This document shows, in pieces, positions 10,793 to 25,026 of a DNA stretch of 32,423 nt. The position numbers and the translations under genes are program-made. The stretch's first letter is position 1, and the number at the start of each line of letters is the position of its first letter. The DNA comes from an uncultured Methanobrevibacter sp. (lineage in GTDB: Archaea > Methanobacteriota > Methanobacteria > Methanobacteriales > Methanobacteriaceae), in assembly GCF_902774605.1 (NCBI RefSeq), contig NZ_CACYJE010000015.1, positions 1 through 32,423 of the forward strand. Direction: 5' to 3'. The notes below the pieces were generated by a model. The model did not search any database and was not told where the DNA came from. It saw only the letters and a list, made by a program, of their open reading frames with translations.

Positions 10793-10819
10793 AAAGCCAA
10801 ATATCTAGAATTTGGCTTT
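10777..10819 (-). terminator. Hairpin at the end of the glycosidase-like operon
   Basis: A perfect 10-bp stem (AAAGCCAAAT 10793-10802, ATTTGGCTTT 10810-10819) overlaps the stop codon at 10805-10807, and a T8 run follows on the minus strand (10775-10782). Confidence 0.8.
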
Positions 10820-12385
10820 CAGGAAATTGAAGTTGCAGCTTATTCCAATACGGAAAAGCACCACGCCATATGCTCCGCCCTTTTTAGCGGCCTTTGCATC
10901 CTTCAGGAGGCTGGATTGGGTCAGTTTCTTTGCGTTGTTGTCTGAATGGTATGACTGCAAGCCGGTCCACACCTGGGCGCCGTTGGACTGCTTGGTGAAT
11001 GTCTTGGTCACGGAGGTTATCCACTTGGTTGGCTTATGGTAATTGCCCTTGTAAACCATCGGCAGCAACACGTCAGCGTATTTGCTTATTGTTGAAACGT
11101 CCTGACCGTAATAGTAGGTCATCATTTTCGGCTCGGGCATAAGCGCCGCCGATACTATGCAGTTAGGCCTAATCTTGTGGATTTGAGTTGATGCCTTTTT
11201 CATGAAGTAGTTGATTGCACGGTTAGGGTCCTTGTAGAGGTGGGCTGTTCCGCCGAAGCGCACGTAATCGAAGTGTATACCGTCCACTCCCTTAATCTTG
11301 GCGTATCTTTTTGCTTCATTGATCTTGCCGTTTAAAAAGCCGTATTTAATCTTGTTTTTCTCATTGATCGGCCTTACCCATTTTCCGTTGGAGTAGCATA
11401 CCTGCATCCAGAGGTGAACTTTCATGCCATGCTTATGGGCTTTCTTGATGAATGACACCACGGATCCCTTGCCGTAGAGTGCTATCGCATGGACGTGGAG
11501 GAATATTTGCTTGGTTCCCTTCTTGGATAGTTTTTTAAGGCTTACGCTGTTCATATGGCTTGACCATAGCCAGTACCCGTTTCCCTTGCCCATCTTGGAT
11601 TTCACCTTTATCTTGCATGAGCCGGAGGATGAAAGGTACGGTGAGGTTTTCTTGAATGAGTACTTGACCTTATATGTTCCCTTCTTGAGCTTAAGGAATA
11701 TTTTGGCGTTTCCGTACTTGTTTGTCTTTACCTTGTAGGTTTTGCCGTTGACCTTTATTGTGACGTACTGGTTCTTTATGGCCTTGCCATTGGAATTAAC
11801 CAGCTTCACGTAGAACAGGCATTTTGAGCCTTGACGGTAGTTGATGTCCTTGTCGCCCTGCTTCAGCTTGGTCTTTACTGCCTCGTTGATTGTTATTCTG
11901 GATGAGGCTGAGGCGGGAGTGGTTTGATTGTCGCCTTCATATGTTATCTGGGCGGTGTATGTTCCCTTCTTGAGGTTGACGTTTAGGCTGACTTCACCGT
12001 TCTTGTCGGTGTTTTTGTTGTATGTCACGCCGTTGAGCACTATCTTTATCGGCTTTGATGAGAGTGCAGTGTTGTTTGATGTGAGCTTGATTTTGAGCGT
12101 GCTTGTGAATGTTGTGTAGCCATTTACGTTGGAGGTGGTGATTTTTGAGGTTGTCTTGACTGGCTCCTCACTGGACTCGTTGGCGCTTACCGGTTCGTTC
12201 TGGACTGTTGATTGAACAGGTTCCTCTTGAGCCTCCTCACTGATTATCTCCTCAGTGATTGGTACCTCCTGGGCCATGATTTCATCGTCTCCATCACTTA
12301 TGACTTCAGTGATGTTGTCTGTGGCTGACACTGCCGTTATGGACAGTGCCAACGTTATGAATATTAATAATAATAGTTTTTTCAT
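10805..12385 (-). CDS. Secreted TIM-barrel glycosidase-like protein with Ig-like repeats (second gene of pair)
   Basis: 526 residues. Signal peptide about 1-22 ('LLLLIFITLALSITAVSA'), an acidic linker (23-75), two Ig-like units (about 80-265; 'VTIKVNGKTYKVKTNKYG'), then a C-terminal domain of about 255 residues. That domain has the alternating pattern of a TIM barrel and the motifs 'GMKVHLWMQVCY', 'GVDGIHFDYVRFGG' (about 375), 'IVSAALMPEP' and 'DVLLPMVYKGNY'. This set fits the GHL10/DUF4015-like putative glycoside hydrolases, where the Asp of 'FDYVR' is a candidate catalytic residue. It starts two bases after the stop of the upstream paralogue, whose end supplies GAGG, so translation is probably coupled. 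Substrate unknown; wall or surface glycan is a reasonable guess. Confidence 0.8.
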   Translation of the reverse strand: MKKLLLLIFITLALSITAVSATDNITEVISDGDDEIMAQEVPITEEIISEEAQEEPVQSTVQNEPVSANESSEEPVKTTSKITTSNVNGYTTFTSTLKIKLTSNNTALSSKPIKIVLNGVTYNKNTDKNGEVSLNVNLKKGTYTAQITYEGDNQTTPASASSRITINEAVKTKLKQGDKDINYRQGSKCLFYVKLVNSNGKAIKNQYVTIKVNGKTYKVKTNKYGNAKIFLKLKKGTYKVKYSFKKTSPYLSSSGSCKIKVKSKMGKGNGYWLWSSHMNSVSLKKLSKKGTKQIFLHVHAIALYGKGSVVSFIKKAHKHGMKVHLWMQVCYSNGKWVRPINEKNKIKYGFLNGKINEAKRYAKIKGVDGIHFDYVRFGGTAHLYKDPNRAINYFMKKASTQIHKIRPNCIVSAALMPEPKMMTYYYGQDVSTISKYADVLLPMVYKGNYHKPTKWITSVTKTFTKQSNGAQVWTGLQSYHSDNNAKKLTQSSLLKDAKAAKKGGAYGVVLFRIGISCNFNFLKAKF

Positions 12386-12387
12386 CT

Positions 12388-14166
12388 CTATACCTCGTTG
12401 AAGTTAATGTAGTTGAAAAGCCCGTACCTGAAGAGTATCACACCGTATGCTCCGCCTAGCGCAGCTGCATCGGCATCTCCCATCAGTTCCTTGGCCGGCA
12501 GCTTCTTGAGTGATGCGTCTGACTTGTAGGTTTGAAGGCCGGTCCATATCTTGGCTTTCTTGGATTGCTTGGAGAATGTCTTGGTCACCCACTTGATCCA
12601 GGAGTGTCCCGCATGGTAGTTGCCCTTGTACACCATCGGCAGTATCGCATCAAGGTACTTGCCCATTGTCTGAATGTCCTGGGCATAGTACTTCTTCATG
12701 CTTGACGGCTCGGGCATGACGGCTGCGGAGAGGATGATTTTCTTGTTCACCTTATGAACCGCTTTTGTCGCCTTCTTGATGAAGGTGTTCACCGCCTTGA
12801 CGGCACCATCATACTTGTAGGCGTTTCCAGGATACCTCACGTAGTCGAAATGCACTCCGCTGACTCCCTTGACCTTGGCGAGTTTCTTGGCTTCCTTGAC
12901 CCGTTCATTTATAAGCTTGTAGTTGATCTTGCCCTTCTTGATTGGGTTGAACCATTTGTTTGACTTGTAGAAGACCTGCATCCACAGGTGAACCTTGATT
13001 CCATGGGCCTTGGATTCCTTTATCCATGACTCGACATGGGATTTGCCGTAGCGTTCAATGGCCTTGGCGTTGAGGAATATGTGCTTGAAGCCGTATTTCT
13101 TGAGCTTGTCGAAGTCGACTTTATTCATGTCTGTTGACAATAGCCACATTCCATTGTTTCTTGCCTGCTTTGGCTTGACCTTGATTTTATAGGTTTTTGA
13201 TGCCTTATTGTAGGTTGATGTTTTGCCGCAGGATGCCTTCACCTTATATGAGCCTGTCTTGAGCTTGATGGTGATTGTGGCGATGCCGTTCTTGTCAGTC
13301 TTTTTTGTGTAGGTTTTCTTGTTGATTTTGAATGTGACCTTCTTTTTGGCCAATGCCTTGCCTCTCACGTCTACTACCTTGACCTTGAACTTTCCGCTTT
13401 GCTTCTTCCTGTAGATTTTAGAATAATATTTTGTAATCTTGATTGGCACGCCTTTCTTGACTGTTATCTTGCTTGTGCCTGTTGACTGCTTGATGTTGTC
13501 CTCGCCGGCGTAAGTGTAGGTGATTGTGTATATTGCCCGGGAAACGTCCTTGATGCTTAAAGTGGCCTTTCCTTTGGAGTTTGTTTTCCTGACCATTGTT
13601 TTTCCAGCCATCTTGAAGGTCACTTCCCTTCCCTCCAACGGCATTCCGCCCACTGTCAATGTGACCGTGAAGGTGTTGGCCGCTCCGAGGTATGCGGTGT
13701 AGTCTGAGCCCTTGATCTTGGAGACTGTTGTGGATACGACCAGGAGCTCCTTTGAAAGGCTGCTTTGAGCATAAGCGTCATCGGAAAATGAGTACTTGAT
13801 AGTGTATGTTCCCTGATTGACATTAACCTTGTATTTGGCGACACCGTCATCTCCAGTCTGGATTTTGGTTGATTTCTTGTTGAGTTCAACTGTAATGGTC
13901 TTGTTTGCGATTCCAGTGCCGTTTTCATCAGTCAGTCTAACTGACACTTCATTTCCCTTAACCACCGTATCGTCATCGCTTTCAAGTGATGTTTTTATCG
14001 GTTCCGTTTGATTTTCACCTATTTGGCTTTGATCGGTTTCATCTAAAATGCCCCCATCAACTGGCATTTCAGACAAGTTTTCCTGTGTCCCGTTCACCTC
14101 GCCATAGGCGCTTGCTGCACCCATAATGGCAAGCATTATTGTGATTGCGGACACTATGAATATCAT
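12388..14166 (-). CDS. Secreted TIM-barrel glycosidase-like protein with Ig-like repeats (first gene of pair)
   Basis: 592 residues from the ATG at 14166; a ribosome binding site GGTGA is 20 bases away, and would fit an ATT codon six bases upstream (ATT-AAA-AAA-ATG) better, so the exact start is open. Signal peptide about 1-21, three Ig-like units (about 60-330; 'VTFKINKKTYTKKTDKNG'), and a C-terminal TIM-barrel-like domain (about 337-592) with 'GIKVHLWMQVFY', 'GVSGVHFDYVRYPG' (about 440), 'ILSAAVMPEP' and 'DAILPMVYKGNYH'. The catalytic-like domain is clearly paralogous to the downstream gene; this copy has one more Ig unit. It is thought to hydrolyse a glycan outside the cell. A TATA-like box lies at 14217-14228. 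Confidence 0.82.
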   Translation of the reverse strand: MIFIVSAITIMLAIMGAASAYGEVNGTQENLSEMPVDGGILDETDQSQIGENQTEPIKTSLESDDDTVVKGNEVSVRLTDENGTGIANKTITVELNKKSTKIQTGDDGVAKYKVNVNQGTYTIKYSFSDDAYAQSSLSKELLVVSTTVSKIKGSDYTAYLGAANTFTVTLTVGGMPLEGREVTFKMAGKTMVRKTNSKGKATLSIKDVSRAIYTITYTYAGEDNIKQSTGTSKITVKKGVPIKITKYYSKIYRKKQSGKFKVKVVDVRGKALAKKKVTFKINKKTYTKKTDKNGIATITIKLKTGSYKVKASCGKTSTYNKASKTYKIKVKPKQARNNGMWLLSTDMNKVDFDKLKKYGFKHIFLNAKAIERYGKSHVESWIKESKAHGIKVHLWMQVFYKSNKWFNPIKKGKINYKLINERVKEAKKLAKVKGVSGVHFDYVRYPGNAYKYDGAVKAVNTFIKKATKAVHKVNKKIILSAAVMPEPSSMKKYYAQDIQTMGKYLDAILPMVYKGNYHAGHSWIKWVTKTFSKQSKKAKIWTGLQTYKSDASLKKLPAKELMGDADAAALGGAYGVILFRYGLFNYINFNEV

Positions 14167-15515: not shown

Positions 15516-16976
15516 CTACTCCTCTAGTAAAGCCGCCTCATCCTCTTCGGAGAAGAGCTGGTTGAGCATCCATTCAGGATCATATTCCATGATGTCATCA
15601 TATCCCTGACCTACACCGAGGAACATGATTGGCTTCTGGATTACGTAGCCGATGGAGAGTGATGCTCCACCCTTGCTGTCCGCATCGGCCTTGGTGAGTA
15701 TTACACCGTCGATGTCGATTGCCTCGTTGAACTTACGGGCCTGTTCGGTTGCATCGTTACCTGTAATGGCATCTCCGACGAAGATTACAAGGTCAGGTTT
15801 GGATACCCTCTTGATTTTCTTCATCTCATCCATGAGGTTGATGTTGGTCTGCATCCTTCCTGCAGTGTCGATTAGGACCAGTTCCTTGCCTTGGGCCCTT
15901 GCATGCTCAACTGCATCGAATGCCACAGCGGCAGGGTCTGAGCCTTTCTGGTGCTTGATGATTTTAACCCCGACGTTGTCTGCGTGATGGGTCACCTGTT
16001 CGATTGCTCCTGCACGGAATGTGTCTGATGCGGCTATGACTGGAGTGTATCCCTTCTTAAGGTAGTAGTTTGCGAGCTTACCGATAGTGGTGGTCTTGCC
16101 TGTACCGTTGATTCCGACGAACATGACGACCAGCGGTTCGCCTTGGGATTTTTTCTCCTCAATCATTTCAGTCATGGATTTGCCTGGAATTGAGATGATT
16201 TCCTCTACTGCATCCTTGAGCGCGTAGTAAGTGTATTCAGTTATGTCGTTGCTTCTTTTGATTTTCTTTCCGACAAGATTGTCCTTTACGCTTTCAACGA
16301 CCTCGGTTGCAACTTCCATTGCAACGTCCCCTTGGAGGAGTTCCATTTCAAGCTCGAAGAGTATGTCCTCAACGTGCTTTTCCTGGATGGTTTTTTCACG
16401 AACGAAGGAGAATATTCCGCCTTTTGCCTCGCCGTCAGCGGAGACATCTTTCTTGTCTTCACTATCCTTCTTGTTCCTGCTCCAGAAGTGAGATTTCTTC
16501 TCTTCTTTTGCTTCCTCTTCAGCCTCTTCGACTTCTTCAGCCTCCTCTTCTGTTTCATCCCCATCCTTATTCCTGCCGAAACTCCAGAAGCCGGATTTCT
16601 TCTCCTCTTTTGCTTCCTCTTCAGCCTCTTCGACTTCTTCAGCCTCATCTTCAGCCTTATCCTCATCCTTATTCCTGCCGAAACTCCAGAAGCCGGATTT
16701 CTTCTCTTCCTTAGCTTCCTCTTCAGCCTCAACAGGTGTTTCCTCTTCGATTGTTTGTGTTGCTTCACTTTCCTCTTCTTCAGGTTCCGGAAGAAGGTTT
16801 TCCTCTTCCTCCTCTTCTTTTTCCTCTTCTTCCTCCTTTTTTCTTCCGAATGAGAAGAATGAGAATCTTGAACCGGATTCCTCCTGAAGGTTGTCTTCTG
16901 CTTCTGCTTCTTCTATTAGTTCCTCTTCCAGCTTCTCACTGGTTCGTGAAAATTTCTTTTTTAATGATTCAAACAA
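15516..16976 (-). CDS. ftsY: Signal recognition particle receptor FtsY
   Basis: 486 residues from the TTG at 16976, which gives 'MFESLKKKF', the usual archaeal FtsY beginning; an in-frame TTG at 16988 would overlap the AGGTTGGG ribosome binding site. It is the GTPase that docks the SRP-ribosome complex at the membrane for co-translational export. The NG domain (from about 195) has the P-loop 'GINGTGKTTTIGKLA', 'DTFRAGAIEQ', G3 'DTAGRM' and G4 'TKADADSKGG'. The N-terminal ~185 residues are extremely Glu-rich and include three copies of a 34-residue unit with 'EAKEEKKSGFWSFGRNK' (the third 'SHFWSRNK'), so this acidic region is longer than usual. capA follows directly. Confidence 0.97.
   Translation of the reverse strand: MFESLKKKFSRTSEKLEEELIEEAEAEDNLQEESGSRFSFFSFGRKKEEEEEKEEEEEENLLPEPEEEESEATQTIEEETPVEAEEEAKEEKKSGFWSFGRNKDEDKAEDEAEEVEEAEEEAKEEKKSGFWSFGRNKDGDETEEEAEEVEEAEEEAKEEKKSHFWSRNKKDSEDKKDVSADGEAKGGIFSFVREKTIQEKHVEDILFELEMELLQGDVAMEVATEVVESVKDNLVGKKIKRSNDITEYTYYALKDAVEEIISIPGKSMTEMIEEKKSQGEPLVVMFVGINGTGKTTTIGKLANYYLKKGYTPVIAASDTFRAGAIEQVTHHADNVGVKIIKHQKGSDPAAVAFDAVEHARAQGKELVLIDTAGRMQTNINLMDEMKKIKRVSKPDLVIFVGDAITGNDATEQARKFNEAIDIDGVILTKADADSKGGASLSIGYVIQKPIMFLGVGQGYDDIMEYDPEWMLNQLFSEEDEAALLEE
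16466..16725 (-). repeat. 102-bp in-frame repeats in ftsY
   Basis: Three tandem units of about 102 bp (34 codons) encode an acidic helix ending in KKSGFWSFGRNK. Two units are nearly identical, the third (16470-16530) lacks the FG pair. The period leaves the frame intact. Confidence 0.8.
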
Positions 16977-17021
16977 AATTAATCCCAACCTAAATAGTTA
17001 GTTTATAATACTATTATTATG

Positions 17022-17036
17022 TTGCTTATATTATTT
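17022..17036 (-). promoter_or_regulatory. TATA-like box of ftsY
   Basis: AATAATATAAGC on the minus strand lies about 50 bases before the ftsY start, so ftsY has its own candidate promoter instead of read-through from pfdA. Confidence 0.35.
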
Positions 17037-17084
17037 AAAAAAATAGATTTGATTGGCTGCGCAGTGACAATGGTTTCGGTGTGA

Positions 17085-17120
17085 AAAAAAAGAAAGATAG
17101 GGGAATGGATGATTCCCTAT
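17085..17120 (-). terminator. Hairpin at the end of the giant adhesin gene
   Basis: ATAGGGGAAT (17097-17106) pairs with ATTCCCTAT (17112-17120) with one bulge, overlapping the stop codon; a T8 run follows on the minus strand (17084-17091). Confidence 0.75.
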
Positions 17121-20100
17121 TTTTTAATGGTTAACTTCTTGGTCAAGGTCGCTTTTCCGTAAGTCACAGTGTATTTAACCTTTTTGCCCACTTTCAATTT
17201 CTTGAGCATTGACTTTTTAACCTTCCAAGTTGCAACACCCTTCTTGTTGGTTTTAACCTTGTAGGTCTTCTTGTTGAACTTGATTTTAAGGGTTTTCTTT
17301 TTAATGTACTTGCCGTTTACTTTTTTCAGCTTGATTTTGATCTTAGTGACTTTCTTGGACTTTTTAACCTTCTTGTTGGATGCCTTGATCAATTGTGCGA
17401 TTTTAACCTTGTTAGTGGCTGATGCACCATTATATGTTGCTTTGATAGTGTAGGTTTTAACCTTTACCATTGTGTCGAGTTTTAAGCTTGCATATCCTTT
17501 CGCATCAGTTTTTACCTTAACGTTTTTGCCGTTGTAGCTGATGGTGACGTATTCACCGACAACAGCCTTGCCGTCCTTGGTTACCAGAACCTTGTAGGTT
17601 GCCTTTCCACTGTAGATTACTTTGATGTCTTTGCCTCCGGTGATCCTGTAGACTGGGTTTACTTTGGAGTTCTTGACTGTTATTTTAATGTCTTGAGTCA
17701 TTCCATCATATTTGCCGTCGCCTGAATAGGTTACGGTTGCAGGATACTCCCCATTCGGCAGGTCATTGATGTCGATGACTGCAGTGCCGTTTACCACTGG
17801 CACAGTGTAGTTTTTACCGCCAACGGTTACAGTGACATTGCCTTTGGCATCGGATGGCAGATTAACAATCACGGAGTCAGTGCCGTTTCCAGGCTGTGTG
17901 ATTCCACCAATCGGTTTTTTAGGATCCACTACTTCGATTTGAATGGTTTTAGTGTAGTTTCCATACTTGAAGGTCATCTCGAACTTATATGGAATGTCCG
18001 GCACTTGCAGGCTGAATGTTGCTTGGCCGTTTTCCAATTTACGACTATCCATTTCCAAACCGTCATATAATGCGGTTACTTCACCAGACAACAGGTCTCC
18101 GAGACTGGTTTTAACGATTACAGGTATTTGAATGGTTTCGTTAATGAATGCCACTTTATCACTTGCTTCGATAACCACGGTGACGTTTGAGTTTTTAACT
18201 GTAACATCCATGTTGCTTGTCATGGAATCGTACTTGCCGTCTCCGGAGTAGGTCAAGGTTGCAGGATATGTTCCATTAGGCAAGTCAGTGACGTTAACAA
18301 CAGCAGTACCGTTAACAACAGGTACAGTATAGTTTTTGCTTCCAACAGTCAATGTGACATTACCTTTGGCATCGGAAGGCAAACTAACAACAACATTGCC
18401 ATTTTCAGCTTGACTGATTCCCTCGATTGGGTTTTTAGGATCAACAACTTCGATTTTAATGCTTTTGCTGTAATCACCATACTTGACGATGAGATTAAAC
18501 TTGACTACAGCGTTAGGCACATGCACTTTGAATGTGGCTTCGCCATTATCCAATGCTAGAGTGGATAATACTGTTCCGTTTTCAAGTAAAAGACTCACTT
18601 CACCATACAACATGTCACCGAGACTGGTTTTAACAACTACCGGAATTGGAATGCTTTCATTGACGAATGCAATCTTGTCACCGGCTTCGATAACCACTGT
18701 GACGTTTGAGTTTTTAACGGTTACGTTCAGGCTTGTGGTCATGTTCCTGTAGATTTCATCTCCTGTGTAGATTACTTCTGCATTGTAGGTTCCGTTTAAT
18801 GATTCGTTGATTTTTATGAGTGCTGAACCGTTGGCCACTGTTGCAGTGTAGTTTTTGCCTGCAATGATTACAGTGACGTTTCCTGTTGCATCTTCAGGGA
18901 ATTTGATTTCAAGTGAATCGTCATCTGATTGGGTTATGTTTTCAATCGCCTTTTCAGGATTTGCAGGGTGAACCCATATCTCACGGGTCAGGTGCTCGAA
19001 TGTTAAGACGAGCATGAATGCCTCAGTGTGTTCGGAGGTGATGTCAAGGTGGAATGTGACTCTTCCTTGGGATAGGTATTGTGATTCCATGTCGGTCATG
19101 TTCACTTCACCTATGAGAGGGTCTCCGATTGTGTCGTGAATGTAGACCGGTATTTCCAGTGTTTCGCCGATGTGGCCTATGAATTTTTCATTCACTTCTA
19201 TTACGATTTCAGTGTAGGTTATGTTTATTCCTTTAATGTCGTTTCCTTCCATGGTCAGGTTATGATTGTTTGTCACATGTATTGCGGATTTGTTTGAGTG
19301 TGAATTGTCAATGTCATTGCTTTTGAGAATATTGTCCGGTCCGTCAACCCAGATGCTTGAACCATGGGCGTTTGCGGAATTGTTGGTGAAGTTGCTGTTT
19401 GCGACAGTTATATTGTCCCCTATAGTGTGGATGGCTCCACCGTAATCTGCAGTGTTGCTTGAAAATCCGCAGTCATCTATAGTTCCGTCGTCACTGTCGA
19501 AGTATACTGCTCCTCCATTGGAAGCTGTGTTTCCGGTGAAGTTGCATCCTTCCACTTGAGCCCCATCGCCGTCAACATATAATGCTCCCCCGTTGACGCC
19601 GGTGTTGTTTTCGAATTGGGAGTTGATTATTTTTCCTTCAGGCCCGTTCCAGTTTAATGCTCCTCCACGGTATTTGGCAGTGTTGTTTATGAACTTGCAT
19701 GAGTCCACGGTACAGTTTACAGCCCCGTGATCAATGGATAATGCCCCACTGCTTAATTCAGCCGTGTTATTAATGAATGTGATGTTTTTGATTAAAACCT
19801 CATTTGCAAATACTTTCACGGCTCCAACGTAACGGTTGGCCCTGTTATTTATAAAGGTACAGTTTTCAACAACACTGCAGTTGGCGTCCCTGTTAATTGC
19901 CAATCCTCCAATGTCCTGGCCGGATACTGAGTTGTTCATGAAATTACAGTTGCTCACAATACTTCTGGCTTGCAGGTTGACGCCCGCCACTGATTTTACA
20001 GCCTTGTTTGATGTGAAGCTGCAGGAGTCGATGGTGAGTGATGCGATAGCATTGATTGCACCGCCCTGATAGCCTGCACTGTTGTTTTTAAATTCATTGT

Positions 20101-20889
20101 TGATTACGGTAGCGTTGGCGTCGTGCCAGTAGTTGATGGCACCTCCGTTAGATGTAGCGGAGTTGTTGTAGAATTCACATTCTGATATTGTTGAGTTTGC
20201 ACCGTACATGAATATTGCTCCACCGTTAGAGCCTGCAGTGTTGTTGTAGAATGCGCAGTTGCTTATTGAAGCGTTGGCTCCCCACCAGTATATTGCTCCA
20301 CCATTATTGCTGGCGTTATTGTTGGCGAATACGCAGTCGCTTATTGTGCCGTTGTCCCCCCTCCAGTTTATGGCACCGTCGTATGTTCTTGAGTTTATGA
20401 ATTTAACTCCCTTGATGACGATATTGCTTGCGGTGATTCTCATGCTTGCTGATTGTGCAAAGTCGATGGTTGCAACCGCCTCATCATCCAGGCTTGATCC
20501 CCCGATTATTGTGAGATTGCTTTTTGATATTTGGATGTTTGAGTTTCCAGTGTAGTTCTTGCCGCCTAAAAAAATAGTGTCCCCTTCTTTGGCGGAGTTT
20601 ATCTTGTCTGTTATGTTCTGGAAGGTGTTTCCTTCAACCGTATGGTTTTCGCAAAGCACTTCCTGGCTTCCAGCTGTCAGTTTGTCGTTTTGCCCATCAA
20701 TCTCTTGTGAAACTGATTGGGTGTCTTCAAATTGTCCTGGCTTGCGCCCAGGTTGTCTGTGGATTCGATTGAATCCTTGCTTATATCGCTTTGGTCGAAA
20801 GTTATATTTTCTGCCGCAGCTATTGCGGATACAGATAATATTAAAGAAAGTATCAAAGCGATAATGAAAATTTTTTTTGTAACTTTCAT
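17117..20889 (-). CDS. Giant adhesin: beta-helix plus Ig-like repeats, signal peptide out of frame
   Basis: About 1257 residues if the frame is repaired. The natural start is the ATG at 20889 (AGAGGA ribosome binding site, seven-base spacer), giving signal peptide 'KIFIIALILSLILSVSAIA'. That frame ends after 70 residues, while the main domain is read one frame over and would start at 20896, inside the ribosome binding site, without a signal. A single missing base near the A run at 20729-20731 explains this. Order: polymorphic right-handed beta-helix (about 70-570; repeats like 'NNTAGSNGGAIFMYG', 'NNSATSNGGAINYW'), then Ig-like units with a 519-bp (173-residue) period ('NVTVTVGGKNYTVPVVNGTA'), then the lysine-rich tail. 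It is thought to be a wall-bound adhesin; the ligand is unknown. Confidence 0.85.
17640..18760 (-). repeat. 519-bp repeats in the giant adhesin
   Basis: The block around tgacgtttgagtttttaac recurs at 18181 and 18700, exactly 519 bp (173 codons) apart, with a third, more diverged copy near 17662. Each unit carries two Ig-like subdomains. Confidence 0.75.
20728..20732 (-). other. Probable frameshift site after the adhesin signal peptide
   Basis: Upstream frame reads '...NLGASQDN' and downstream frame '(F)EDTQSVSQEIDGQNDKL'. Adding one T to the TTT on the minus strand joins them smoothly. It is one of two adhesin genes here broken by a single missing T just past the signal peptide. Confidence 0.6.
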
Positions 20890-21642
20890 TATTCATTCCT
20901 CTTATATTATATTTAATTAATAAAAATTCGTGAAAACTATCATGAAATTGAGTTTATGAAATTATAAAATCAGCTTTTGCAATACAAAATTCAATAATAG
21001 TTATATTAACTGTATATCTTTTCTAGTATATAAATGTACAGTATAACTATCATTGATTTTAAAATTTTACAGTTTGAGAAAAAAAATAATATCCAATATC
21101 GAACTGGACAATTTTCAGAAAATCATTATCGAGAAATGTATGCATTCCAATAAATTATGGGAAAAAATATATACAGTAGGATAATTTCGATGAAAAAAAT
21201 AGACATCATTATATAATATTTTTTTGTTTTGATTTAAATCAAGATTGGAACATGAAGAAAAAAACAATAGATCATGAGCCCCACATTCCAATTTGATTTT
21301 AACTATTCATTGAATTTGCACTGCCCCACATGAGTAAGAGGTAATTGAAGATTCTCTTATGGAACAGTGATTATAGTATATACTTCATAGTATATAAATT
21401 ATTACATTGTCCAAAAAATTAAGTTTAAGCTATACAGTTTATTGCAAATATTGAAATATATTATATTTTTTTGCAATCCCAGTTGGACAATATCAATATA
21501 TAACATTGACAAGTGAAAACTAATACAAAATGCTTCATGAAAAATTGAAAAACATCTAAAAAACATTACAAAAACGATAGAGTTTTTGAACAATAAAACA
21601 ATGCATCTGCTTGAATTATGACAGTTGAAAAAAAGATGAGGA
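20890..21642. other. AT-rich intergenic region with a dyad around a TATA-like box
   Basis: About 750 bases without a supported gene. The one structured part is 20997-21050: arms ATAGTTATA-CTGTA and TACAG-TATAACTAT flank the TATA-like AGTATATAAAT (21025-21035), about 110-160 bases upstream of the adhesin start. A second AGTATATAAAT lies near 21388-21398. Two short GC-richer patches (GCCCCACAT at about 21278 and 21323) are unexplained. Confidence 0.4.
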
Positions 21643-21666
21643 TGCGGCGTGAAAGCAATCGCCGCA
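21627..21666 (-). terminator. GC-rich hairpin after the 455-residue orphan gene
   Basis: TGCGGCG (21643-21649) pairs perfectly with CGCCGCA (21660-21666), loop of ten bases, and a T7 run follows on the minus strand (21628-21634). It is about 80 bases past the stop at 21744. Confidence 0.7.
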
Positions 21667-21743
21667 CCGGAATTTAAGTTAAATTATACTATTTGCCTAA
21701 TCAATGAAACTAAAAAGGAAGTTATGCGGAAAAAAACTTGATT

Positions 21744-23111
21744 TCAAGTTTGCATCAATAGTCCATTAATGTTTGAAGATTCAATAATTGAAATTTCTAA
21801 AATAGTATCGTTTTGAGGTACTACTTCATTATCCTCGGGAGTTAATTGGTTAACGAACAGTGCACCGCATAAATGGCCGCTGACCATATCTGCACTGTCG
21901 CCTGTATGTTCTTCACTTCCTGCAATTGATCTTTCAAAAATACTATAGTTCCCATTAACCATTGCGCCGTTTTCGGATGGGGAGATTGCATGTTCATCCA
22001 TGGCGGCGAATCTCTCAGATGATCCCTTATCATGTTTATATAGGTTTGTACAATAATTTAAAGTATTTTGAAGATAATTATTAAAGAAATGTTCAATGCT
22101 TAAATTGGAGAATTCCACGATGATGGATCCATCAATCTGGAATGCATTAAAGGTCCTGAGGCGTTCGCATACCGGTGCGTCCTGCAGCCGCTCGTGATTG
22201 CATGAATCAACATGACGCTTGAATGAAGGTTCACAGTCATCCAGAGTCCCGTTTATATGATTATGTTTTACAATAAAGAAGGAATTTCCAATAATGTCTA
22301 TAATGAAATTTAAAATTGTTTGTTTTGATAAGCATTTAATACTCTGGACATTCCCATACGGTGTAGGGCATGATTCTTTCAATGCTCCAGCAGCGAGTGA
22401 AGCGTGGCCTTTAAGCCTTCCAATAGGCTTTAGCGCCGGCCCATCATATACCAGAACATCATCCTTAAAGAAAGTCCCTATCCATATTCCTGAAACCATG
22501 CTTGAATTCAAGCCTGCAATTGAGCAAACATCACTTTTGAGCTCATTTGAATCTTTTCCCGGCCCATATTCATCATAATAGGTTGCGCAAAATGAATAAT
22601 TATAATGCAAGTCGTTTATGGAAATCATGAAGTTTAACATTTTACGATTCGGATAGTTTGAAAAAAAGCTTTCGCCAACAGAATCAATGACATGGCCAAT
22701 CGGTTTTGAATTGGCATTTCCCATCAAATCATTGGAAACTATGGGTGTATTGAGGTATTTTCCATTGAAAAGATGATTTGCTGATGACATGTTCAAAAAA
22801 TCAGTGCCGATTTGGTCATTATGATCATTGACGGTTCTTGGCAAAGCGTCTGAAATTCCCATGAAACAGTGGTCGAAACATGAAAAATTTCTTGCTTTTA
22901 TATATTTGGGTGTTGTGAGATTTGGCTCGTTAAAATTAGGGTGTTCGATTTTTTCTTCGCTTGCATGTGAATTATGCGTTTCTTCAACACTTAATTCTAA
23001 AGATGATTCATGTAATGAGAGTGTTTCAATACCGTGTTGACTAGCGAAGCTTATGTTAATCCCTGGATGAGCGGATGCTGTTAATGTAACAACCAAGTAT
23101 TTTCCAATCAC
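21744..23111 (-). CDS. Unrecognised 455-residue protein
   Basis: I do not recognise this protein. It is supported as a gene by a complete AAAGGAGGTGA ribosome binding site five bases before the GTG at 23111 (the strongest in the window), a TATA-like box at 23162-23176, and a GC-rich terminator hairpin. The product is unlike its neighbours: rich in Asn, Ser, His and Asp, poor in Lys, with about 13 cysteines ('SFCATYYDEY', 'ESCPTPYGN', 'LDDCEPSF', 'HLCGALFV'), and without Ig-like or lysine-rich modules. The first 25 residues ('YLVVTLTASAHPGINISF') are only weakly signal-like. One moderately hydrophobic stretch ('LNFIIDIIGNSFFIVKHNH') is not a clear membrane segment. It lies in the island between pfdA and ftsY. 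The unusual composition suggests transfer or a fast-evolving role. Confidence 0.65.
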   Translation of the reverse strand: MIGKYLVVTLTASAHPGINISFASQHGIETLSLHESSLELSVEETHNSHASEEKIEHPNFNEPNLTTPKYIKARNFSCFDHCFMGISDALPRTVNDHNDQIGTDFLNMSSANHLFNGKYLNTPIVSNDLMGNANSKPIGHVIDSVGESFFSNYPNRKMLNFMISINDLHYNYSFCATYYDEYGPGKDSNELKSDVCSIAGLNSSMVSGIWIGTFFKDDVLVYDGPALKPIGRLKGHASLAAGALKESCPTPYGNVQSIKCLSKQTILNFIIDIIGNSFFIVKHNHINGTLDDCEPSFKRHVDSCNHERLQDAPVCERLRTFNAFQIDGSIIVEFSNLSIEHFFNNYLQNTLNYCTNLYKHDKGSSERFAAMDEHAISPSENGAMVNGNYSIFERSIAGSEEHTGDSADMVSGHLCGALFVNQLTPEDNEVVPQNDTILEISIIESSNINGLLMQT

Positions 23112-23140
23112 TTTTTCACCTCCTTTTATGTTGTTTTAGC

Positions 23141-23176
23141 TAGCCATTATTGTGGCTAATCTATATATTTATCATA
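23141..23176 (-). promoter_or_regulatory. TATA-like box and adjoining dyad of the orphan gene
   Basis: On the minus strand TATGATAAATATATAG (23161-23176) is centred 57 bases before the GTG. A 6-bp dyad (TAGCCA 23141-23146, TGGCTA 23153-23158) lies where transcription should begin, a position typical of repressor operators in archaea. Confidence 0.45.
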
Positions 23177-23409
23177 TCCTCATATAAATAATTTACTGGT
23201 GAAAAAAATAATCAGTTCGATATGAATTTAATTTATAATTATACAAACTAAATGTTTTATTGAGAAGAATATATTATCTGTATAATTTAAAATCTAGAAA
23301 AAATACGAAATCGCTTAAAATTATCCATAAATTACCTAAAAATATTAGATAATATCCAGAAAAATATACAGTAAATCATAATAATTTCAAAAAAATAAAC
23401 AAATCAAAT
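23177..23409. other. AT-rich gap, nothing recognised
   Basis: Very AT-rich DNA between the orphan promoter and the plus-strand frames. The direct signals here are only A/T runs; the promoter of the 23632 gene may lie in or after it. Confidence 0.4.
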
Positions 23410-23610
23410 ATGAAAAATTGTCAAAATCATCAAATCGACCATCAAACGCCAAGCGTTGGATTAAAAAACATATTGCCACTTCCCATCAAGACTGGGTCAA
23501 ATCAAAGCCAATTGATCGGGACAATGGTAAAAGCATCGCACCCTGAGGATTTTCATGTCCCATCCAATGCCATTCAAATATTGAATATAAAACATCAATT
23601 TAACAATTAA
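23410..23610 (+). CDS. Doubtful 66-residue frame
   Basis: This frame (MKNCQNHQIDHQTPSVGLKN...) stands out because its DNA is richer in G+C than the surroundings and its Asn/His/Gln/Ser-rich composition resembles the divergent orphan protein. There is no ribosome binding site and no recognisable domain. It could equally be the 5' leader of the gene at 23632 or a decayed piece of something else. Confidence 0.25.
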   Translation: MKNCQNHQIDHQTPSVGLKNILPLPIKTGSNQSQLIGTMVKASHPEDFHVPSNAIQILNIKHQFNN

Positions 23611-23631
23611 TATTTTGGAGGATTGAAAAAA

Positions 23632-24480
23632 ATGAAGTTAAAAACGATAAGTAAAATACTACTAGCAATACTTGTTTTGACGATAAGTCTAGGCGTTATT
23701 TCCGCAGCAGACAATAACGCCACAGTATTAGAAGCCCCAACCAACAATATAGACAAGAACGTTCTTGCAGACCATGATTGGGATGACGACTGGGACGATG
23801 ATGATGGTGACTGGGACGATGATGACCGCTACGAATGGGACAGGAATCATGGATACCACAAGAGCATGCCATCAAAAGTCAGCAAAGGAAAAATCAAGAC
23901 AAAAGTGGATGCAGATCCAATAACCGTGAAATACAAGAAGAACAGCTACTTCAAGATAAAAGTTGAGGACAGATACGATGACGACAATCCAATCGGCAAG
24001 GTTAAATTAAAAGTCAAGATTGGAAAAGGTTCCAAGGCAAAAACCTACAATGTCAAAACCAATTCCTATGGTGTTGCGAAAATAAACACTAAAGGATTGA
24101 AGACAGGAACCCATAATGTCGTGATAACATCAGCAAACAAGAAATACGACATATCAAAAAAATCCAAGATAATTGTGGCTAAGCAATACTCCGCAACAAT
24201 TAAAGGCACCAGCAAGAAAGTGTTGAAAAACAATGACATCGTAAAAGTGAAAGTCAGAAACGACGACGATGAAAAGGAATACAAGATAGTGCTTAAAAAG
24301 AAAAGCAAAAGCACAAAAATAACCAAGGCGGTTTTCTACTTCAAAAACAAGTACACCGGAAAAGTCATCATGAAAACGGATCATGCTGAATTCGACGATG
24401 GCAGATGGGACTTGCCTGAAGAGGACTGCTCATACAGATACGAACTGATGAAAGTGAAAGTATACTATATGTCAAACTGA
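23632..24480 (+). CDS. Secreted Asp/Trp- and Lys-rich protein
   Basis: 282 residues from the ATG at 23632, ten bases after GGAGG; the in-frame TTG at 23623 is too close to the ribosome binding site. Signal peptide about 1-26 ('ISKILLAILVLTISLGVISA'). Next comes a very acidic segment with Trp at regular places ('DWDDDWDDDDGDWDDDD', about 50-66), a pattern that could bind Ca2+ or other cations. The rest is Ig-like and basic ('KVKLKVKIGKGSKAKTYNVK', 'NSYGVAKINTKGLKTGTHNV'), the same module type as in the adhesins but without the usual terminal KGKTYKAKTNKKG block. It ends with 'YELMKVKVYYMSN'. It may act at the surface as a short wall-associated protein; function unproven. Confidence 0.82.
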   Translation: MKLKTISKILLAILVLTISLGVISAADNNATVLEAPTNNIDKNVLADHDWDDDWDDDDGDWDDDDRYEWDRNHGYHKSMPSKVSKGKIKTKVDADPITVKYKKNSYFKIKVEDRYDDDNPIGKVKLKVKIGKGSKAKTYNVKTNSYGVAKINTKGLKTGTHNVVITSANKKYDISKKSKIIVAKQYSATIKGTSKKVLKNNDIVKVKVRNDDDEKEYKIVLKKKSKSTKITKAVFYFKNKYTGKVIMKTDHAEFDDGRWDLPEEDCSYRYELMKVKVYYMSN

Positions 24481-24518
24481 ATGGGGAAAACATTTTCCCA
24501 TTTTTAACTTTTTTTAAA
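24480..24518 (+). terminator. Hairpin after the Asp/Trp-rich protein gene
   Basis: AATGGGGAAAA pairs with TTTTCCCATT (24480-24502) starting at the stop codon, followed by T runs. Confidence 0.65.
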
Positions 24519-24591
24519 AACAGATTAAAACCCGAACCATCGAGCCATTATAAGTCAGTGAAAAAAAATAGAAAAAGAAATAAGGATAATA

Positions 24592-25026
24592 TTAACCCAT
24601 AGGGGTCATATTACCTTGAGCGGCGGCTGCGATCTGCTCGGCTTGAGCCTGAAGATTGCCTGCAGCGTCAGTGACTTGCTGAAGGTTTGCAAGCATCTTG
24701 TCGAGACTGTCCTTTAACTCATCCTTTTGACCGGATAAGATTTCACGAGCTCCGGCAGCATCCTTTTTGACAGCAAGACCTGCACCGATGCTTACAATGA
24801 TTTCATCAGTGTCTTTCAATTCACCCTTGACGAATGATCCTGCACCGACCGGCACGAAAGCCTCAACACTGTCCTTGCCTTCAATGTCATCCAAGGTATT
24901 GAAGAGCGCATCGACTTCAGCCATGGAGGCCTGGATCAGTTCGATTTGCTGATGAATCAAATCCGCTTGTTGCCTGTACACATTAATTTCGTTGAGAAGA
25001 CTGTTTAATCTTTGTTGATCTTCCAT
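24592..25026 (-). CDS. pfdA: Prefoldin alpha subunit
   Basis: 144 residues, normal for the family. Two long coiled-coil helices (about 1-45 and 95-135) flank a beta-hairpin region ('KDSVEAFVPVGAGSFVKGEL', 'IIVSIGAGLAVKKD'), the alpha-type prefoldin layout with the G-A-G motifs. It assembles with beta subunits into a jellyfish-shaped hexamer that hands unfolded proteins to the thermosome. GAGG before the ATG at 25026. It is the last gene of the ribosomal/eIF6 run; the T-rich stretch following its stop (minus strand, about 24544-24575) may end the transcript. ftsY, its usual neighbour, is about 7.6 kb away here. Confidence 0.95.
   Translation of the reverse strand: MEDQQRLNSLLNEINVYRQQADLIHQQIELIQASMAEVDALFNTLDDIEGKDSVEAFVPVGAGSFVKGELKDTDEIIVSIGAGLAVKKDAAGAREILSGQKDELKDSLDKMLANLQQVTDAAGNLQAQAEQIAAAAQGNMTPMG

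Follow-up and report, generated by a model that had tools for sequence, protein, structure and literature searches.

An ORFan in Methanobrevibacter and its closest described counterparts

Clusters of atypical genes in archaea contain ORFans (Cortez, Forterre and Gribaldo, 2009, PMC2718499). The orphan gene analysed here resembles the ORFans of that study in three respects, namely that no homologue was found, that its T-ending codons are atypical and that it lies in a lineage-specific insert. However, it differs from them in being long (455 aa), in having a GC content near the mean of its surroundings and in adjoining no recognisable mobile-element gene. Another described system that comes close is the islands of adhesin-like proteins in Methanobrevibacter. 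An adhesin and a secreted Ig-like protein lie in the same insert as the orphan, which, unlike the adhesin-like proteins of this genus, is Lys-poor and carries no clear signal peptide, beta-helix or Big domains. A likeness to the DUF447 family (PF04289; solved members 2ptf, 2nr4, 2iml and 3b5m) consists of a 31-residue motif-like alignment and of a DUF447-like gene in the same interval of one relative, and it is statistically no better than that of a shuffled sequence. Finally, the match to the phage family phrog_15194 spans about 70 of the 455 residues.

The window, which is the whole stretch of DNA analysed here (32,423 nucleotides), corresponds to the entire contig C15 of a 2.14 Mb MAG that is 96% complete. 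Relatives identified through pfdA were rumen and gut Methanobrevibacter, the nearest being RGIG8874 (94%); M. thaueri SIG17 stood at 92%. The coordinates of the orphan, its signals and its neighbours in the insert are listed in Table 1.

Table 1. Features of the pfdA-ftsY insert and of the orphan gene, in window coordinates
Feature	Position	Strand	Remarks
Lineage-specific insert	16989..24591		Between pfdA (24592-25026) and ftsY (start near 16970-16988)
Adhesin-like protein	17117..20896	-	Beta-helix, Big_3_5; part of insert
GC-rich hairpin	21641..21668	-	3' of orphan; -15.6 kcal/mol, z = -3.4
Candidate terminator	21734..21751	-	T7 immediately after a 7-bp stem; overlaps orphan stop codon
Orphan CDS	21744..23111	-	455 aa from a GTG start; free of internal stops
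Shine-Dalgarno AAAGGAGGTGA	23117..23127	-	5 nt ahead of GTG
Perfect dyad TAGCCA-N6-TGGCTA	within 23141..23159	-	At expected transcription start; putative operator or leader hairpin
TATA-like box AAATATATA	23162..23170	-	Consensus match only
Secreted Lys-rich Ig-like (Big_3_5-like) protein	23623..24480	+	Same insert, divergent from orphan

The orphan is an intact protein-coding gene

The orphan is a real, intact, protein-coding gene and not a misannotated frame. Its codon periodicity was pronounced (nucleotide by codon-position chi2 = 59, p = 7e-11), whereas the intergenic DNA on either side had none (p = 0.52 and 0.86). Codon log-odds at the locus were positive in the orphan frame only, and the longest open run in 300 mononucleotide shuffles of its sequence was 144 codons. 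That the frame is no functional gene, being for example a spurious long frame opposite a decayed gene on the plus strand, is very improbable. A 36-residue stretch does look like an aspartoacylase-like gene of L002 read in antisense, but its E value of 0.002-0.006 corresponds to chance across 67 genomes, and the largest frame on the opposite strand does not exceed 94 aa. Furthermore, the excess of G at the first codon position over the second and third is found in all five fifths of the minus-strand frame and thus spans its whole length, and a first-order Markov model predicts about 1e-6 frames of 463 codons by chance in a genome of 2.14 Mb.

The sequence-only reading had described a 455-residue, Asn/Ser/His-rich and Lys-poor protein with about 13 cysteines. 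Length and composition (Asn 9.4%, Ser 10.5%, His 4.6%, Lys 4.2%) agree with our analysis, while the cysteines number 11. The product has a calculated mass of approximately 50.4 kDa, a pI of 5.1 and 21 histidines. With no TM-like segment and no clear signal peptide seen, this acidic product is probably soluble, as predicted from its sequence.

Start region, terminators and codon usage

The start region of the orphan appears well equipped, judging by its sequence elements. Its Shine-Dalgarno sequence contains a 9-nt complement (AGGAGGTGA) to the 16S 3' end, taken as known for the group, and this match is the longest among the 28 window genes compared (at most 7 nt in the other 27). The TATA-like box sits just upstream of the dyad. 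The full ribosome binding site that had been claimed is present, as are the TATA-like box and the dyad at the predicted transcription start. The dyad occurs as a single perfect copy in the genome. A genome scan allowing 0-1 mismatches revealed no likely shared operator, its one further copy being located in an apparent coding sequence. As an RNA hairpin, the dyad had a z value of -2.7.

Downstream of the orphan, the GC-rich terminator that had been proposed stood up in part: the hairpin is strong, but about 9 nt separate the stem from its T-run and the terminator scan did not include it among its listed terminators, so it does not qualify as a canonical terminator. The alternative candidate at the stop codon is a weaker hairpin, with a folding energy no better than that of shuffled sequences (z = -0.4).

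The orphan favours T-ending codons in its NNY families (AAT 0.70, TAT 0.87, CAT 0.76, ATT 0.65), whereas the housekeeping and surface genes of the window favour C-ending ones; the window's accessory genes resemble the AT-rich orphan. Given this accessory-like codon choice, we accept a well-equipped start region but not the claim that the gene is well expressed, for which the Shine-Dalgarno and promoter strings had been the sole basis. By codon usage, high expression is not supported.

The orphan has no recognisable family

Searches of Pfam, NCBIfam, PHROGs, PADLOC and PDB sequences, in the case of Pfam and PHROGs also by segments, yielded no relative of the orphan. The PADLOC models of known anti-phage defence were equally without a match. 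Phage records, plasmid records and four IMG/VR scans gave no relative, nor did 67 genomes of the genus, 139 of the family and 152 of the phylum (overlapping sets). We found no paralogue in the same genome and no match in the Methanobacterium viruses psiM2 and Drs3, the latter search having been run without a positive control. A scan of GTDB contigs was also empty; it relies on exact matching of 8-residue peptides and so reaches close relatives only. As bacterial genomes outside the searched sets were covered by this peptide scan alone, a distant bacterial homologue may exist. DNA-level matches within the genus were short AT-rich stretches, mostly from the region upstream of the orphan. Overall, the whole protein has no database homologue at E < 1e-3, and the orphan is an ORFan, ordinary as a kind. 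These searches bear out the claim that it matches no known family in the five collections named first, and the suggestion of something undescribed holds only in the sense that applies to any ORFan.

Two weak matches in the genome searches were at chance level, one within a tyrosine-integrase-like ORF, named by eye from its sequence (G128), and the other antisense to an aspartoacylase-like gene (G031). Single-sequence AlphaFold2 modelling gave no usable fold, with pLDDT values of 34 for the whole protein and 37 for residues 130-365. For phrog_15194, residues 318-388 matched at E = 0.048 with the full protein and at 0.0029 with a segment trimmed after the fact; the best value among the controls (8 shuffles and 1 reversal) was 0.06.

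The alternating strand/helix pattern of the protein suggested internal repeats, for which self-alignment scored 37 against 37 +- 5.6 in shuffles. The same pattern yielded, by eye, the leads Pcc1, Roadblock and DUF447. Pcc1 (PF09341) was dismissed at an hhalign probability of 0.7%, shuffles behaving alike and the alignment containing some unrelated rows, and Roadblock/LC7 (PF03259) gave no match over the cut-off in 26 genomes of the genus. Many Methanobrevibacter genomes appear to encode, beside the canonical KEOPS subunit, another Pcc1-like protein that is divergent from it (20-27 bits; e.g. G000:C2:35861-36058).

The third lead would make the orphan a very diverged member of a common Methanobrevibacter family, such as the FMN split-barrel DUF447, masked by fast evolution and not newly acquired. 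Residues 113-143 align by hhalign with the N-terminal, flavin-binding DUF447 motif GxQYETIITTxNxxGxxNAAPIGVI, ending in PIG, and the pfdA-ftsY interval of the relative L150 holds a DUF447-like gene, assigned by its PIG motif and by alignment A1. However, the alignment score of 19.0 was equalled or exceeded by 13 of 150 shuffles, the likeness stops at these 31 residues with none over the rest of the protein, and a PF04289 search of the genome at E<=10 did not match the orphan. No profile match of the orphan to PF04289 rose above the cut-off, and we consider this origin improbable.

The pfdA-ftsY interval is an insertion hotspot

Across Methanobrevibacter, insertions recur between pfdA and ftsY, and their contents differ from genome to genome. 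The gap between the two genes measures 7.6 kb here, against 112-132 bp (to the FtsY N-terminus) in the five nearest genomes and 98-242 bp in most others. In this genome it contains the adhesin, the orphan and the secreted Ig-like protein, whereas differing inserts of 1.3-6.9 kb were found in at least eight genomes (L062, L068, L069, L072, L150, L151, L155 and L156). In L059, adhesins follow pfdA to the contig end, over more than 5.9 kb. The ORFs in the inserts of these relatives, named by eye, include adhesin-type, pyruvate-kinase-like, RNA-guided-nuclease-like and DUF447-like ones. A site that is empty in close relatives and variable in content elsewhere is the pattern expected of mobile-element cargo, and the earlier placement of the orphan in a lineage-specific island agrees with the empty site in the nearest genomes and with the failure to find relatives.

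We therefore favour, with a probability of about 0.62, the reading that this Methanobrevibacter lineage acquired the ORFan as cargo of the pfdA-ftsY insert. The insert would have brought the orphan into an interval where related genomes repeatedly hold unrelated accessory genes. With its own TATA-like box, operator-like dyad and strong ribosome binding site, the orphan is an apparent single-gene transcription unit, and on these grounds we propose that a repressor acting at the dyad probably controls its transcription, rather than transcription being constitutively high. The most likely source would be a mobile element or archaeal virus absent from databases. As for its role, an accessory, element-related one seems most likely; virus-host conflict, offered here as an example and a guess, is doubtful.

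Several observations count against the preferred reading. Neither the ORF list nor the Pfam scan revealed an integrase or a viral gene in the insert. The GC content of the orphan (37.6%) differs little from the mean of the window (39.4%), its 455 aa are long for an ORFan and the gene is known from one MAG only. In addition, some inserts of relatives consist of ordinary genes (DUF447-like, adhesins), so mobile elements need not drive this spot. No att repeats were recognised in 20897-24600, the segment where they were sought.

The company of the orphan in the insert invites another explanation, in which it would be an accessory protein of the adhesin island, surface-bound or secreted, whose signal peptide (MIGKYLVVTLTASA) is short and weak and whose ectodomain is glycosylated. 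Surface-type proteins flank it on both sides, its short hydrophobic start ends AxA-like, and it has 10 N-x-S/T sequons compared to 6.1 +- 2.2 in shuffles. Yet this excess is below 2 sd, the hydropathy over 10 N-terminal residues is 1.84 against 2.7-4.2 in window proteins with intact signal sequences, and the orphan has no Ig or beta-helix domain; the combination that marks adhesin-like proteins, a signal peptide with beta-helix or Ig-like repeats, was not found in it. Eleven cysteines are also unusual for an extracellular methanogen protein. We regard a surface or secreted location as unlikely.

Beyond the cargo reading of this one gene, the pfdA-ftsY interval, within a conserved ribosomal/SRP cluster, accepts accessory genes that differ from one Methanobrevibacter species to the next. 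This makes it a defined place to search rumen methanogens for undescribed genes of accessory or defence function, a result that can be reused. Among ORFans, long intact ones are less common than the usual short kind, and new protein families may well be sought among them. That the orphan represents a new fold or family engaged in virus-host conflict or cell-surface interaction at this hotspot of rumen Methanobrevibacter would be a long shot.

Other genes in and around the interval also had distinctive features. In the adhesin-like gene of the insert, the signal peptide (MKVTKKIFIIALILSLILSVSAIAAAENITF...) and the body are in different frames (window 20500-20900, minus strand), the frame shifting no more than about 70 codons into the gene; either the gene is broken, it undergoes phase variation or the assembly is wrong. 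The N-terminal linker of FtsY (15516-16988, minus strand) is acidic and contains tandem repeats (EEKKSGFWSFGRNKD...), and its length varies between related genomes. Further along, Ig-like (Big) domains occur together with a putative glycosyl hydrolase domain, DUF4015, in two adjacent paralogues (10805-14166, minus strand), which are kept beside capA-ftsY in most of the relatives examined.
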